Below are positions 50,259 to 54,413 of a stretch of DNA of 64,000 nucleotides, piece by piece (position 1 is the first letter of the stretch; the number at the start of each line of letters is the position of its first letter). Source of the stretch: an uncultured Bizionia sp. Its GTDB lineage: Bacteria > Bacteroidota > Bacteroidia > Flavobacteriales > Flavobacteriaceae. Made by a program: the position numbers and the translations under genes. The stretch is taken from NCBI GenBank assembly GCA_947496215.1, contig CANMCF010000016.1:1-64000 (forward strand), given 5' to 3'. A model generated the notes under the pieces. That model was given only the letters and a program-made list of their open reading frames with translations. It was not told the origin of the DNA and ran no database searches.

Positions 50259-51341
50259 CTATCCTTTGATTATTTTCTCCTGATGGTTGATGGATTCCTG
50301 GTGAATGGCTTTGAACATCTTGAGTATGAATTCCTCACTCAATCCTTTTTGTTCTCCTTCAAGCACCATCTTTCCTAAGATTTCATTCCAACGCTTACTC
50401 TGTAAAACAGCAACGTTTCTCTGCTTCTTGAGAGCTCCTATGCCATCGGCTACCTTCATACGCTTTCCTATCAAGTCAATGATTTGGTTATCGACAACAT
50501 CAATTTGCGCTCTAAGGTTATCCAATTCGTTGTTATACTCTGCCTCGGGATCAGTTTCTTTTCTAATACGCAAATCCTTCATCATTTGTACCAATGTCGT
50601 TGGTGTTACCTGTTGAGCAGCATCACTCCAAGCATTGTCTGGATCCGTGTGTGTCTCTATCATCAATCCATCGAAATTCAAATCCAAGGCCGTCTGGGAT
50701 ACATCGAAAACCATATCGCGTTTACCCGTAATATGCGAAGGGTCGTTAATTAAAGGCAAATCTGGGAATCTATTTTGAAATTCAATTGCCAATTGCCATT
50801 CAGGAATGTTTCTGTATTTTGTTTTTTCGTATGTAGAAAACCCTCTATGTATGGCTCCCAGGTTTTTAATCCCGGCAGTATACAATCTCTCAATTCCTCC
50901 CAACCACAATGCTATGTCTGGGTTTACTGGATTCTTTACCAGTACCGTCTTGTCTGTTCCTGCCAATGCATCAGCCAATTCTTGCATTATAAAAGGGCTA
51001 ACCGTAGAGCGTGCTCCTATCCACAACAAATCGACATCATGCTCTATTGCCAATTTCACGTGTGCAGCATTGGCTACCTCGGTGCAGGTTTTCATTCCTG
51101 TTTCCTCCTTTACCTTTTGTAGCCATTTCAAACCTAAGGCTCCTACACCTTCAAACATTCCAGGGCGTGTTCTTGGCTTCCAAATACCAGCTCTAAAGTA
51201 GCTTACGTCCGTGTTTTTGAGCTCATGGGCAATTTTCAGTACTTGTTCTTCTGTTTCAGCGCTGCAAGGTCCAGCGATAACTAATGGGTGGTCTAATTTT
51301 AAATCGTCTAACCACGTTCTCATTTCTTTTTTATTTTCCAT
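50259..51341 (-). CDS. Bifunctional DAHP synthase/chorismate mutase
   Basis: The 360-residue fusion has an N-terminal type I-beta DAHP synthase (1-260: VIAGPCSAET, FRAGIWKPRTRPG, LPLINDPSHITGKR, METHTDPDNAWSDA as MIETHTDP). A C-terminal AroQ chorismate mutase follows (about 270-355: ELDNLRAQIDVVDNQIIDLI, KRMKVADGIGALK). The C-terminal placement of the mutase is the arrangement known from Bacteroidota. There the mutase also serves as a regulatory domain. It is the last gene of the operon led by pheA, 25 bases after tyrA. Confidence 0.95.
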   Translation of the reverse strand: MENKKEMRTWLDDLKLDHPLVIAGPCSAETEEQVLKIAHELKNTDVSYFRAGIWKPRTRPGMFEGVGALGLKWLQKVKEETGMKTCTEVANAAHVKLAIEHDVDLLWIGARSTVSPFIMQELADALAGTDKTVLVKNPVNPDIALWLGGIERLYTAGIKNLGAIHRGFSTYEKTKYRNIPEWQLAIEFQNRFPDLPLINDPSHITGKRDMVFDVSQTALDLNFDGLMIETHTDPDNAWSDAAQQVTPTTLVQMMKDLRIRKETDPEAEYNNELDNLRAQIDVVDNQIIDLIGKRMKVADGIGALKKQRNVAVLQSKRWNEILGKMVLEGEQKGLSEEFILKMFKAIHQESINHQEKIIKG

Positions 51342-51366: not shown

Positions 51367-52221
51367 TTAACTTATTCCGTTTAATATTTGTTTTATATAA
51401 TTGGTATCTTTCATTTCGTTGTAGACTCCATCAAAATCATCCTTTTCCATCATTTCCTTGAACTGTGTCAGGTTCGTTATGTAATCTTCCAAGGTTTCGA
51501 TCACATTTTCTTTGTTCTGTTTGAAAATGGGCGTCCACATGGCTGGAGAACTTTTTGCCAAACGTACCGTTGATTCGAATCCACTACCTGCCATATCGAA
51601 GATGTCACGTTCATTCTTTTCCTTTTCTATAACCGTCTTACCCAACATGAATGAGCTTATGTGTGATAAATGCGACATATATGCAATGTGCTTGTCATGG
51701 GACTCTGGATTCATATAACGCATTCGCATTCCAATTTCCGAGAACAGTTTCAATGCTTTTTCTTGAAGCTTGAAAGCCGTCTTCTCAACTTCGCATACAA
51801 TGTTCGTCTTATGTTCGAACAAATCATGGATGGCAGCCTTGGGTCCGGAAAACTCAGTTCCTGCTATTGGATGCATCGCCAAAAAGTTTCTACGCTTTGG
51901 ATGGTTTTCCACTATTTTGCAAATATCGAGTTTGGTAGAGCCTACGTCTACTACCAATCCAAAATCCGAAATGGTGTCCAAAACCTTAGGCAAAAGTCTA
52001 GTTGTGGCGTCAACTGGAATCGACAATATTACCAAATCCGCATTGTCCAAATCATTTAAAGTCGCCTTGTCATCTATGACTTTCAGTTCTATAGCCTGAT
52101 TTAAATGATCTTCACTATTGTCTATCCCATAGATGGTTACTTCTGGTCTTTTTTCTTTAATGTCCAAAGCCAGACTTCCTCCTATTAAACCAACGCCTAT
52201 TATGTATATGTTCTGTATCAT
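51367..52221 (-). CDS. tyrA: Prephenate dehydrogenase
   Basis: The 284-residue protein converts prephenate to 4-hydroxyphenylpyruvate for tyrosine synthesis. It has an N-terminal Rossmann motif GVGLIGGSLALD (about 8-19), VVDVGSTK and the active-site region MHPIAGTEFSGP (about 116). There is no ACT or mutase domain. Its start overlaps the end of the aminotransferase gene by 4 bases. Confidence 0.93.
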   Translation of the reverse strand: MIQNIYIIGVGLIGGSLALDIKEKRPEVTIYGIDNSEDHLNQAIELKVIDDKATLNDLDNADLVILSIPVDATTRLLPKVLDTISDFGLVVDVGSTKLDICKIVENHPKRRNFLAMHPIAGTEFSGPKAAIHDLFEHKTNIVCEVEKTAFKLQEKALKLFSEIGMRMRYMNPESHDKHIAYMSHLSHISSFMLGKTVIEKEKNERDIFDMAGSGFESTVRLAKSSPAMWTPIFKQNKENVIETLEDYITNLTQFKEMMEKDDFDGVYNEMKDTNYIKQILNGIS

Positions 52222-53360
52222 ATCCTTGCTATTGCCTCTTTAATCGATTCGCTTGAAGCACACAGTGAAAACCTCACATAACCTTCTCCTTTAGTTCCGA
52301 AGACTGTTCCTGGAGTTATGAATATGTGATTTTCGATTAACAGTTTGTCTATGAATTCTTCCGACTTCATCTTTGGTGGCAACTTGGCCCAAACAAACAA
52401 TCCATTGGTATCCTTGTCGAATGTACAGTTTAACCTCCTCGCCAACTCCCATACATGCTCCCTCCTTTCCTCATAGATATCATTCAAATTCTCAAACCAG
52501 TTCTTTGAACACTTCAATGCTTCGATTGCTCCCTTTTGAATACCGTAGAACATTCCAGAATCCATATTGCTCTTCACTTTCAACACAGCATTCAACAGGG
52601 TTTGGTTTCCTAAAACCATTCCTACTCTCCAACCTGCCATATTGAAGGTCTTGCTTAAGGAATTCAATTCCAAACAGATTTCCTTTGCTCCTTTTATGCT
52701 TAAAATGCTCAAAGGCTCATTATTTAGAATGAAGCTATATGGGTTGTCGTTTACCAACAAAATGTGGTGCTCTTTGGCAAATGCTATTAAATCTTCAAAG
52801 ATCTTTTTGCTCGCCTTTGCTCCTGTTGGCATATGTGGGTAGCTCAACCACATTAATTTAACCTTGCTTAAATCTAACTTCTCCAACGCTTCAATGTTTG
52901 GGCACCAACCATTCGCCTCGTCCAAATCATAAAATACCGGCTCTGCTTGCATCAACTTTGTTACAGAAGTGTATGTCGGGTACCCAGGGTTAGGGATCAA
53001 CACTTCGTCTCCTTTATTCAAGAATGCCATGGAAATATGCATGATTCCTTCCTTGCTTCCCATTAATGGAAGCACTTCCTTTGTTGGATCCACTGACACT
53101 CTAAAACGTTCAGAATAAAACTCCGAGATGGCATCTCTTAATTCTGGCAATCCTTGGTAACTTTGGTATTTATGGGCATTGGCTTCCTTAAAGCTGTTGG
53201 TTATCGCAGTTATTACCTCTTCTGGTGGTTGCAAGTCTGGACTACCAATGCCTAAATTGATAATTGGATGCCCTTTAGTCTTTAATGTATTTACTTCTTT
53301 TAATTTCTTAGAGAAGTAGTATTCCTCGACACTTTCTAGTCTTTTAGCTACTTCTATCAT
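52218..53360 (-). CDS. Aminotransferase class I/II, probably aromatic amino acid
   Basis: The 380-residue fold-type I PLP enzyme has NLGIGSPDLQPP near the start, NPGYPTY, NDNPYSFIL and the PLP lysine in SLSKTFNMAGWRVG (about 233). Its position between pheA and tyrA, with 4-base overlaps on both sides, suggests that it transaminates phenylpyruvate and hydroxyphenylpyruvate. Sequence alone does not exclude other specificities, such as LL-diaminopimelate-type aminotransferases. Confidence 0.88.
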   Translation of the reverse strand: MIEVAKRLESVEEYYFSKKLKEVNTLKTKGHPIINLGIGSPDLQPPEEVITAITNSFKEANAHKYQSYQGLPELRDAISEFYSERFRVSVDPTKEVLPLMGSKEGIMHISMAFLNKGDEVLIPNPGYPTYTSVTKLMQAEPVFYDLDEANGWCPNIEALEKLDLSKVKLMWLSYPHMPTGAKASKKIFEDLIAFAKEHHILLVNDNPYSFILNNEPLSILSIKGAKEICLELNSLSKTFNMAGWRVGMVLGNQTLLNAVLKVKSNMDSGMFYGIQKGAIEALKCSKNWFENLNDIYEERREHVWELARRLNCTFDKDTNGLFVWAKLPPKMKSEEFIDKLLIENHIFITPGTVFGTKGEGYVRFSLCASSESIKEAIARI

Positions 53361-54184
53361 TTTTTCGTGTTTTTGTATTCTCCCAGAACCTTGAATTCCG
53401 TTGCCATTATCTTCATTATGCTTTTTGCTTTTTCATAGTCTTCATAGTCATTGAAAGTAATATCCACAAAGAAGGAATATTTCCAAGGCGTCTCTATTAT
53501 TGGTAGGGATTGTATCTTGGTCAAATTCATCTTGCAATCGCTCATCACATTCAATATTGTAGCCAAGCTTCCTCTTTTGTGATCCAATTCGAATTTTATC
53601 GAGGCCTTGTCAATTTCCACTTCTGGAATTCTTGGCTTGCTTCTTTTTACAATGACGAATCTGGTTTCGTTGTGTTTTATGGTTTGTATGCTTTCTTCAA
53701 GAATGTCCAATTCAAAAATTTCGGATGCCAAACGACTAGCTATTGCTGCCACATTTTCAATCCCATCTTTCTTAATTCGTCTGGCAACATCTGCTGTATC
53801 TATGTCTTCCACCAATTTGATATGTGGGTACCTCTTGAAGAATTCTTTACATTGTAGCAATGCCATAGGATGGGAATGTACTTCCTCTATATCATCGATA
53901 CTTTGATTTGGCAAAGCCATCAAGTGATGTTGAATATCCAAATAATGCTCCCCAACGATGTGTAGGTCATTGTTGTCTATCAAGGCATAGTTGGGAATAA
54001 TGGAACCTGCTATGGAGTTCTCAATCGCCATTATTGCTGCCTCCGTCTCATGATTCAGTAATTTGGCCACAGTCAAATCAAAAGACAAACACTCGTTCAC
54101 CAGTACATCGTTTCCAAAATAATCTTTGGAGACAATATGATGAAAAGACCCTTTTACGCCTTGTATTGAAACTGAATTTATCAT
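53357..54184 (-). CDS. pheA: Prephenate dehydratase
   Basis: The 275-residue protein makes phenylpyruvate from prephenate. The dehydratase domain (1-180) has QGVKGSFHH, ENSIAGSI and the catalytic NETRFVIV. A C-terminal ACT domain (about 190-275) follows. In the ACT domain the usual Phe-binding ESRP motif reads QSLP (in NLTKIQSLPI), so allosteric control may differ. The gene heads the aromatic operon and is preceded by a leader peptide and attenuator, which indicates control by aromatic amino acid supply. Confidence 0.94.
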   Translation of the reverse strand: MINSVSIQGVKGSFHHIVSKDYFGNDVLVNECLSFDLTVAKLLNHETEAAIMAIENSIAGSIIPNYALIDNNDLHIVGEHYLDIQHHLMALPNQSIDDIEEVHSHPMALLQCKEFFKRYPHIKLVEDIDTADVARRIKKDGIENVAAIASRLASEIFELDILEESIQTIKHNETRFVIVKRSKPRIPEVEIDKASIKFELDHKRGSLATILNVMSDCKMNLTKIQSLPIIETPWKYSFFVDITFNDYEDYEKAKSIMKIMATEFKVLGEYKNTKK

Positions 54185-54206: not shown

Positions 54207-54254
54207 TATAAACAAAAAAAGTCTCGATATATATCGAGACTTTTTTTGTTTATA
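54207..54254 (-). terminator. Attenuator: perfect 48 bp palindromic terminator in the pheA leader
   Basis: Each half-site has 24 bases and contains AAAAAAAGTCTCGATAT. The RNA hairpin with its U-rich 3' side is a strong intrinsic terminator. It sits between a promoter-like element and pheA, ending 23 bases before the pheA start codon. It therefore acts on transcription entering the operon, not leaving a gene. Part of the stem, GTCTCG, can alternatively pair with CGAGAC at 54280-54285 inside the leader ORF. Confidence 0.8.
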
Positions 54255-54266
54255 ATGTTGTTTAAA

Positions 54267-54344
54267 TTACATACACAGCGTCTCGTTCTTTTCGTTAAAA
54301 AAGAAATAAAACCAGCTAAAATATGTATTTACGTTTGTGTTCAT
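54267..54344 (-). CDS. Aromatic-rich leader peptide of the pheA operon, 25 residues
   Basis: A 25-codon ATG ORF ends 12 bases before the terminator hairpin. Codons 8-16 read YFSWFYFFF, eight aromatic residues of nine, followed by NEKNETLCM and TAA. Such a run is diagnostic of a ribosome-mediated attenuation leader. When charged Phe, Tyr or Trp tRNA is scarce the ribosome should stall there. That leaves CGAGAC (codons about 20-22) free to pair with the terminator's left arm and lets transcription continue. The mechanism is inferred from architecture. Confidence 0.8.
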   Translation of the reverse strand: MNTNVNTYFSWFYFFFNEKNETLCM

Positions 54345-54382
54345 TATTTGTTTCTGCACAGGCAGACATCTATTTTATGATG

Positions 54383-54413
54383 CTAAAGTAATTAATAAAT
54401 TAACAAATCAAAA
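54383..54413 (-). promoter_or_regulatory. Promoter of the pheA leader and operon
   Basis: On the minus strand TTTTG, an 18-base spacer and TACTTTAG fit the Bacteroidota promoter with one mismatch. Transcription would start near 54376, about 32 bases before the leader ATG. Confidence 0.5.

Follow-up and report, generated by a model that had tools for sequence, protein, structure and literature searches.

The window, by which we mean the whole stretch of 64,000 nucleotides that was analysed, carries on its minus strand a gene cluster whose enzymes serve phenylalanine, tyrosine and the trunk that their pathways share. A preliminary description had named pheA, an aminotransferase, tyrA and a DAHP synthase/chorismate mutase as coupled genes, and family searches place all of them downstream of the leader considered below. 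The aminotransferase gene and tyrA overlap by four bases, the fusion gene follows tyrA after 25 bases, and the C-terminal third of its product is matched by several chorismate mutase models. The divergent neighbour is gldA (54507, plus strand; NCBIfam TIGR03522, 452.8 bits against a cut-off of 402.6). The features of the operon and of the gap before it are as follows.

50259–51341, minus strand: DAHP synthase fused to chorismate mutase (PRK12595, 192.5 bits, under the cut-off of 279)
51367–52221, minus strand: tyrA, prephenate dehydrogenase (PRK08507, 392.2 bits, above the cut-off of 295)
52218–53360, minus strand: class I aminotransferase, with a 4-base overlap with pheA
53357–54184, minus strand: pheA, prephenate dehydratase (best family PRK11898, 183.7 bits, under the cut-off of 219)
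54207–54254, no strand assigned: perfect 48-base palindrome enclosing the terminator stem, from an inverted-repeat scan
54214–54228, minus strand: segment 4, ATCGAGAC, together with the T tract of the intrinsic terminator
54233–54240, minus strand: segment 3, the terminator left arm GTCTCGAT, common to both alternative helices
54241–54279, minus strand: inner part of the antiterminator hairpin, from folds and a reshuffling test
54267–54344, minus strand: leader peptide ORF of 25 codons, MNTNVNTYFSWFYFFFNEKNETLCM, with its ATG at 54344 and its stop codon ending at 54267
54280–54285, minus strand: segment 2, antiterminator strand CGAGAC, within leader codons N-E-T
54297–54323, minus strand: regulatory codons 8–16, Y F S W F Y F F F, whose 3′ portion doubles as candidate segment 1
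54383–54413, minus strand: promoter-like TTTTG (54413–54409), 18 bases, and TACTTTAG (54390–54383), from the sequence

The gap had been described as holding a promoter-like TTTTG with a second site 18 bases on, a 25-codon ORF whose codons 8–16 read YFSWFYFFF, and a perfect 48-base palindromic terminator with the start of pheA 23 bases beyond it, and all of these are there: the ORF agrees base for base, the promoter-like pair stands upstream of it, the palindrome runs from 54254 to 54207 on the minus strand, and pheA starts at 54184, at the distance given. Of the 1254 ORFs of 8–45 codons that begin with ATG on either strand of the window (each nested start counting as one), the leader ORF alone has at least seven aromatic residues within nine codons. 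The palindrome, with 24-base arms, is the longest perfect inverted repeat of the window in a scan for perfect arms of at least 14 bases and loops of 0–8 bases, the next having arms of 17. Its T tracts point both ways, and it could also stop transcription towards gldA.

Related loci were gathered by scanning genome contigs with PheA, and the best 80 of 465 loci (PheA identity 70–93%), most of them titled Flavobacteriaceae or with genera that we take to belong there, form the near set. In 79 of these best 80 an aromatic leader stands before pheA; the eightieth (L023), cut by a contig end, shows the tail and terminator only. A script recovers the whole leader in 76 of the 80, the others being L043, likewise cut, where the aromatic run lacks a start codon, and L021 and L022, where a repeat insert separates a leader further upstream from pheA. 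These last two are Gelidibacter loci, and repeats between attenuator and pheA displace the attenuator to about 430 and 540 bases from the gene in L021 and L022, respectively, and to about 900 bases in the more distant L157. The window and the 76 loci make up the 77 leaders treated below, with L021, L022, L023 and L043 outside the set. The preliminary description had called for an alignment of the pheA upstream regions of related flavobacteria and had held that loss of the aromatic run beside a conserved terminator would tell against it; in the alignment the aromatic-rich short ORF and the terminator are both conserved, and they are kept together. The commonest run among the near leaders is T-Y-[YF]-[NS]-W-F-Y-F-F-F, and Trp codons occur in 64 of the 77 leaders (a set that includes the window); among the 61 divergent rows introduced below, 34 have one.

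The promoter-like sites share in this conservation. TTG and TAnnTT[AT]G, which we take to be sites of the Bacteroidota promoter type, stand at similar spacing upstream of the ORF in 73 of the 77 leaders, window included, and the remaining four have the second site alone. That second site lies 18–27 bases before the ATG, or closer in the band, in 61 of the 73 (counted among the twelve commonest distances), and the distance is 45–49 bases for the window and a handful of its close relatives. A transcription start downstream of the terminator had been named as an observation that would undo the attenuator; on the comparative side, the promoter motif stays 5′ of the ORF throughout these 73 leaders.

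The elements of the proposed switch are more uniform still. GTCTCG is segment 3 in all 77 leaders, window included, GAG[AG][CT] follows the run in all 77, the gap between the two is 37–40 bases in 70 and 36–48 in all, and at least six T stand in the eight bases after the core stem in every one. The base 5′ of GAG is C in 64 leaders and A in 13, among which at least two are probably misplaced, and the outermost pair is thus sometimes lost, while changes in the five-base core keep pairing by way of G-U. The left arm, which has to take part in two helices, is invariant across the 77 leaders, and both of its partners vary; many relatives have a G-U pair in the terminator stem where that of the window is a perfect palindrome. 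In nine leaders (L009, L018, L019, L026, L028, L030, L052, L062 and L077) the stop codon comes 1–3 codons past the aromatic run, and all nine retain GAG[AG]C untranslated. The last three aromatic codons (codons 14–16 of the window) are TTC TTT TTT in 73 of the 77, a fixed synonymous choice that fits UUUC:GAGA pairing in a helix between segments 1 and 2.

In 34 of the 77 leaders the terminator stem ends at most 14 bases before pheA, which leaves no room for a promoter between them, so that transcripts of pheA must pass the terminator. This bears on the proposal that the palindrome is a plain bidirectional terminator between gldA and pheA and the aromatic ORF a coincidence, a proposal that draws on the perfection of the window palindrome, its T tracts in both directions and a plus-strand match of 50 bits to the search model R1 described below. 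The flanking genes are divergent, however, and neither runs into the palindrome; the stem sits within 14 bases of pheA in those 34 leaders; and an aromatic leader and a covarying antiterminator are kept beside it, all of which leaves the proposal extremely improbable.

The preliminary description had noted that CGAGAC (54285–54280), just past the aromatic run, repeats a piece of the terminator right arm, which lets it pair with the left arm, GTCTCG (54240–54235). Both points hold, and the proposed pairing covaries in divergent loci. A fold of the leader RNA for competing structures, also suggested there, yields an antiterminator hairpin that competes for the terminator left arm. As an antiterminator, the pairing of leader tail and left arm stands; six base pairs as its full extent do not, for a larger hairpin folds in many near relatives. 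In the 50 of the 77 leaders taken into alignment A1 and the folds, the hairpin from segment 2 to segment 3 has −8.2 to −17.4 kcal/mol and is in many cases three-tiered (CGAGAC:GUCUCG, UUGUAU:AUAUAA and AAUUUAU:AUAAAUU), and a script detects the outer helix in 48 of the 50 nascent leaders, the printed folds showing it in the other two as well. The inner tiers are weaker in the window, where the antiterminator totals −11.8 kcal/mol. For the window RNA between 54385 and 54185 the folding energy is −52.7 kcal/mol (z = −6.96 relative to shuffled sequences), contributed largely by the terminator.

Covariation was sought in more distant members of the family. Sixty further family loci were fetched, of which 59 hold pheA, 38 of these having been chosen for an R1 match, and so biased, and 21 without one. 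A leader is present in 57 of the 59 and in 19 of the 21; in L175 and L178, among these divergent family loci, pheA is present and no leader was found. Segment 3 now takes the forms GTCTCG, GTCCCG, GTTCCG, GTCCTG, GCCTCG, ACCCGG and others, and segment 2 tracks it, as in CGAGAC/GTCTCG, CGGGAC/GTCCCG and CAGGAC/GTCCTG. The test set of 61 rows consists of 56 from the family, L146 and L164 being the same place, and five from other families (L141, L144, L145, L147 and L148), chosen by R1 match. Across these rows the duplex of each tail with its own left arm has a mean of −10.2 kcal/mol against −7.46 (sd 0.257) after reshuffling, with none of 2000 reshufflings as good, and own pairing beats the foreign mean in 53 of the 61 rows and fails to do so in eight. 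Reshuffling leaves shared ancestry in, a concern that is lessened, and only that, by a version with one row per distinct arm (30 rows), which gives −10.38 against −7.28 kcal/mol, again with 0 of 2000 as good. Control stretches of the same length gave no signal: of 2000 reshufflings, 1411 did as well for the stretch 5′ of the ATG, 503 for the one within the run and 1263 for the one 3′ of the terminator. In the same type of test on 61 rows the inner halves of the antiterminator pair at −4.48 against −3.57 (0 of 2000), the run pairs with the tail (1:2) at −9.72 against −7.95 in the 61 divergent loci (0 of 2000), and the 5′ part of the leader shows no excess pairing with the tail (144 of 2000 as good).

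These duplex energies replaced an earlier test of six-base complementarity on account of the crude choice of core in the latter, which scored 102 of 137 sites for own arms, 395 of 2603 for foreign and 528 of 6850 for shuffled ones. It took in 137 of 152 loci, leaving aside those without pheA in view (L142, L143, L149, L151, L152 and L172) and those without a leader or stem by script (L002, L023, L043, L054, L150, L157, L175, L178 and L187); L150 is the window again, and L157 and L187 show leader and stem on reading.

The strong conservation of the peptide among near relatives might suggest a functional small protein, with the RNA features incidental to it. In the divergent loci it is mainly aromatic richness that the peptide keeps, though, and the nine leaders that stop early still keep the RNA downstream; spacing and pairing, moreover, are features of RNA. 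We accordingly give a small protein only the faintest probability and return to attenuation.

How a translating ribosome would act on these helices was modelled by folding the nascent RNA up to segment 3 with the ribosome masking from 13 bases before to 15 bases after the first base of the P site. For the window this predicts the antiterminator with a probability of 0.61–0.79 while the A site is at codons 1–2 and of 0.985–1.0 at codons 3–16, codon 16 being the last aromatic one; the value drops to 0.026 at codon 17 and is 0 over the codons that remain, the stop codon included. Over the 77 leaders it averages 0.967 on aromatic codons (leader minimum 0.00) and 0.000 at the stop codon, and the first blocked codon comes 1–3 codons after the last aromatic one in 75. 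A footprint shorter by two bases moves this to 1–3 codons, mostly 3, in 72 leaders, with three never blocked, and one longer by two bases to 1–2 codons in 75. In the other two of the 77 the antiterminator is blocked in the model already on the run (minimum 0.00), which is taken for the effect of a misplaced segment 2, a GAG look-alike standing just upstream as in L005 and L050.

When no ribosome is placed on the RNA, the model still favours the antiterminator, with a probability of 0.71 for the window and of 0.73 on average for the 77 leaders (below 0.5 in 18), so that an untranslated leader would often read through. The protecting 1:2 helix, which is supported by covariation, appears weak by its modelled energy, and this is the main loose end. 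Once the whole leader RNA is folded, the terminator has the lower energy wherever the ribosome was placed (at codon 11, −35.2 against −20.0 kcal/mol for the antiterminator), and the switch must therefore be kinetic, with the antiterminator acting before segment 4 is made.

Taken together, we consider it very probable that a ribosome-mediated transcription attenuator controls the pheA–aminotransferase–tyrA–DAHP synthase/chorismate mutase operon, a reading built, by comparison of sequences, on the aromatic leader ORF, the terminator, the mutually exclusive pairings, their spacing and the upstream promoter motif, from which we infer the start site, the stalling, the kinetics and the response to amino acids. 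The Trp/Phe-style attenuation first proposed was right in kind, and conservation, covariation and spacing now back it. RNA polymerase would start upstream of the leader ORF with a ribosome trailing it. A shortage of charged tRNA for Phe, Tyr or Trp would stall the ribosome within codons 8–16, and the free leader tail would pair with the terminator left arm once this is made, letting the polymerase continue into pheA; when charged tRNA is plentiful, the ribosome would reach the stop codon and mask the tail, and the terminator would form. Given that the enzymes of the operon act in the phenylalanine and tyrosine branches and in the common trunk, each of Phe, Tyr and Trp makes sense as a signal.

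The pheL–pheA system of Escherichia coli likewise has a Phe-rich leader peptide, alternative hairpins and a terminator before pheA. The run described here differs in having Tyr and often Trp codons, and genes for tyrA and DAHP synthase are part of the same operon. The trp leader of E. coli has segments 1–4 with pairings 1:2, 2:3 and 3:4, of which 2:3 and 1:2 are supported here by the reshuffling tests; the apparent weakness of the 1:2 protector in the window, and the frequent read-through predicted of an untranslated leader, set the two apart.

To follow the spread of the element, the model R1 was built from 50 leaders. It matches 136 of 199 genomes of the family, all of them with pheA, and thus 136 of the 178 that bear pheA, and none of the 20 listed without it (Fisher p = 7e-12). 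Of 144 matches in the family, 116 sit upstream of a listed pheA on the same strand and eight lie elsewhere, one of these being the window palindrome read on the plus strand (50 bits). For the remaining 20 the place of pheA is absent from the list; 19 of these were fetched (a match in G186 lies outside the fetched set) and all hold pheA, 18 with a leader in the 500 bases scanned and one, L157, with its leader about 900 bases off behind repeats. A strong second match of 113.7 bits (G048:C240:8625–8755) occurs in a genome whose listed pheA is on contig C91; it may reflect a mixed assembly or a second copy.

At the level of the class R1 matches only 10 of 247, two of them family members, and a detector for an aromatic leader with a strict terminator was used instead on 60 pheA loci of other families. 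It passes 17, namely 15 of 43 from the order or class, covering ten families, and 2 of 17 from beyond the class, and fired on 2 of 1800 dinucleotide shuffles of the 60 upstream regions. The order and class sample comprises 42 of 57 out-of-family pheA genomes plus G541, and the other-class sample 17 of 95 pheA-bearing genomes. A leader-like ORF without the strict terminator can be seen by eye in 12 of the 43 failures (L221, L225, L226, L228, L229, L235, L237, L240, L250, L251, L252 and L261), which are left uncounted. As a separate observation, the PheA proteins of L261, L266 and L272 (genomes G452, G492 and G547, of other classes) are 41–43% identical to that of the window, against 30–40% in the other-class genomes listed, and each of these loci has an aromatic leader, that of L261 without the strict terminator, which suggests that pheA may have been transferred along with its attenuator.

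Leaders of the same kind precede other amino acid genes. In the genome of the window, trpE is preceded by MNTTLNNTWWWSSRKNKFVN and a terminator (L274, G000:C5) and hisG by MTFIQLHHHHFHSGNRAS and a terminator (L277, 1187–1304, G000:C1), the trpE leader holding WWW and the hisG leader HHHHFH. In a search of 31 genomes, its own included, hisG was found in 20, with at least four His in nine codons in 18 and HHH in the other two (L277–L297), and a terminator follows the His leader in all 20. The trpE gene was found in 22, where the leader of the best copy reads WWW in 20 and WW in two (L274, L298–L319); the best stem follows the Trp leader in 15, often as AAGGCTTGTC-loop-GACAAGCCTT, and in the other seven either no stem was found or one lies further upstream. 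A second trpE-like gene of the window's genome (L275/L320, G000:C8; 58% identical) has no Trp-run leader. Folds of the trp leader gave no clear antiterminator, and the claim there extends to leader and terminator. Judged by these sequences, the codon run of the leader fits its pathway in the pheA, trpE and hisG cases alike.

The same codon runs weigh on the possibility that the element is a riboswitch that binds tRNA or a metabolite, whether a T-box or another type, or an antiterminator under protein control, with the ORF secondary. The long antiterminator hairpin, whose inner part could bind a protein, and the poor termination predicted for an untranslated leader would suit such a device. Searches of the window and 10 of the 80 near loci, however, returned no T-box or other cis-regulatory family of Rfam at gathering score, weak sub-threshold matches mostly covering the palindrome and the Phe_leader family (RF01859) reaching 24.6 bits, below its gathering threshold of 55; and codon runs follow the pathway before trpE and hisG too. 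We hold such a device to be very unlikely, if a shade less so than the two alternatives discussed above.

For attenuation by a translating ribosome, a broader picture has in our estimate about an even chance of being correct as a whole: an ancestral layer of attenuation in Bacteroidota with dedicated His, Trp and aromatic switches, in which the pheA leader would be a single sensor answering to a stall at any Tyr, Trp or Phe codon and metered by the ribosome footprint, the spacing between the last aromatic codon and the antiterminator strand matching the reach of the ribosome's leading edge. If true, transcription and translation would be closely coupled in Bacteroidota, which mostly start translation without Shine-Dalgarno pairing, and the pheA leader would offer a ready reporter for such coupling in the group. 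The phyla taken to have runaway transcription, as given in the accessible part of one account, do not include Bacteroidota (PMC13323073), an absence that agrees with coupling.

A comparative study of attenuation by Lopatovskaya et al. (2010) reportedly exists and may overlap with the present findings. The window attenuator is partly anticipated in print, for the portion of a 2021 report available to us describes, for Flavobacteriaceae, clues to leader-peptide attenuation before amino acid operons and 5′ elements that are conserved ahead of pheA and of hisG, the pheA case including Flavobacterium psychrophilum (PMC9723704); its pheA section, in that portion, names no peptide, codons or antiterminator, and that element is presumably the same as the window leader. 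No covariation analysis of the pheA leader element was found in the literature searched, most subscription journals lying outside it. The present analysis adds covariation support for the antiterminator, occurrence outside the family, the accompanying Trp and His leaders and, possibly, a sensor of three amino acids. A covariation-backed attenuator that a strict detector also finds in ten further families of the class, and that has Trp and His counterparts in the relatives sampled, would establish attenuation as a usual means of controlling amino acid genes in the group, and the leaders give annotation a set of conserved small ORFs.

Other reports touch on this at more distance, each being cited for the part of its text that could be seen. 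A 2010 study stated that leader-peptide systems, the ermC type aside, had been shown only in Proteobacteria and Actinobacteria before its own His leaders of Firmicutes (PMC2965389), and nothing bearing on the pheA leader element appears in the corresponding parts of two further papers (PMC4833913; PMC8305728). Short ORFs reminiscent of leader peptides occur in long 5′ ends of Bacteroides thetaiotaomicron mRNAs (PMC7366714). The motif uORFC-13-1 before aroF in Acholeplasma was proposed to hold a Phe-coding uORF beside a terminator (PMC8632094), and a similar sensing role was proposed for a pair of Phe- and Tyr-containing uORFs at genes of the shikimate pathway (PMC6429828). By description, these uORFs resemble the window leader as proposed Phe/Tyr sensors at genes of the aromatic pathway, and they differ from it in standing before other genes, uORFC-13-1 also in another phylum.
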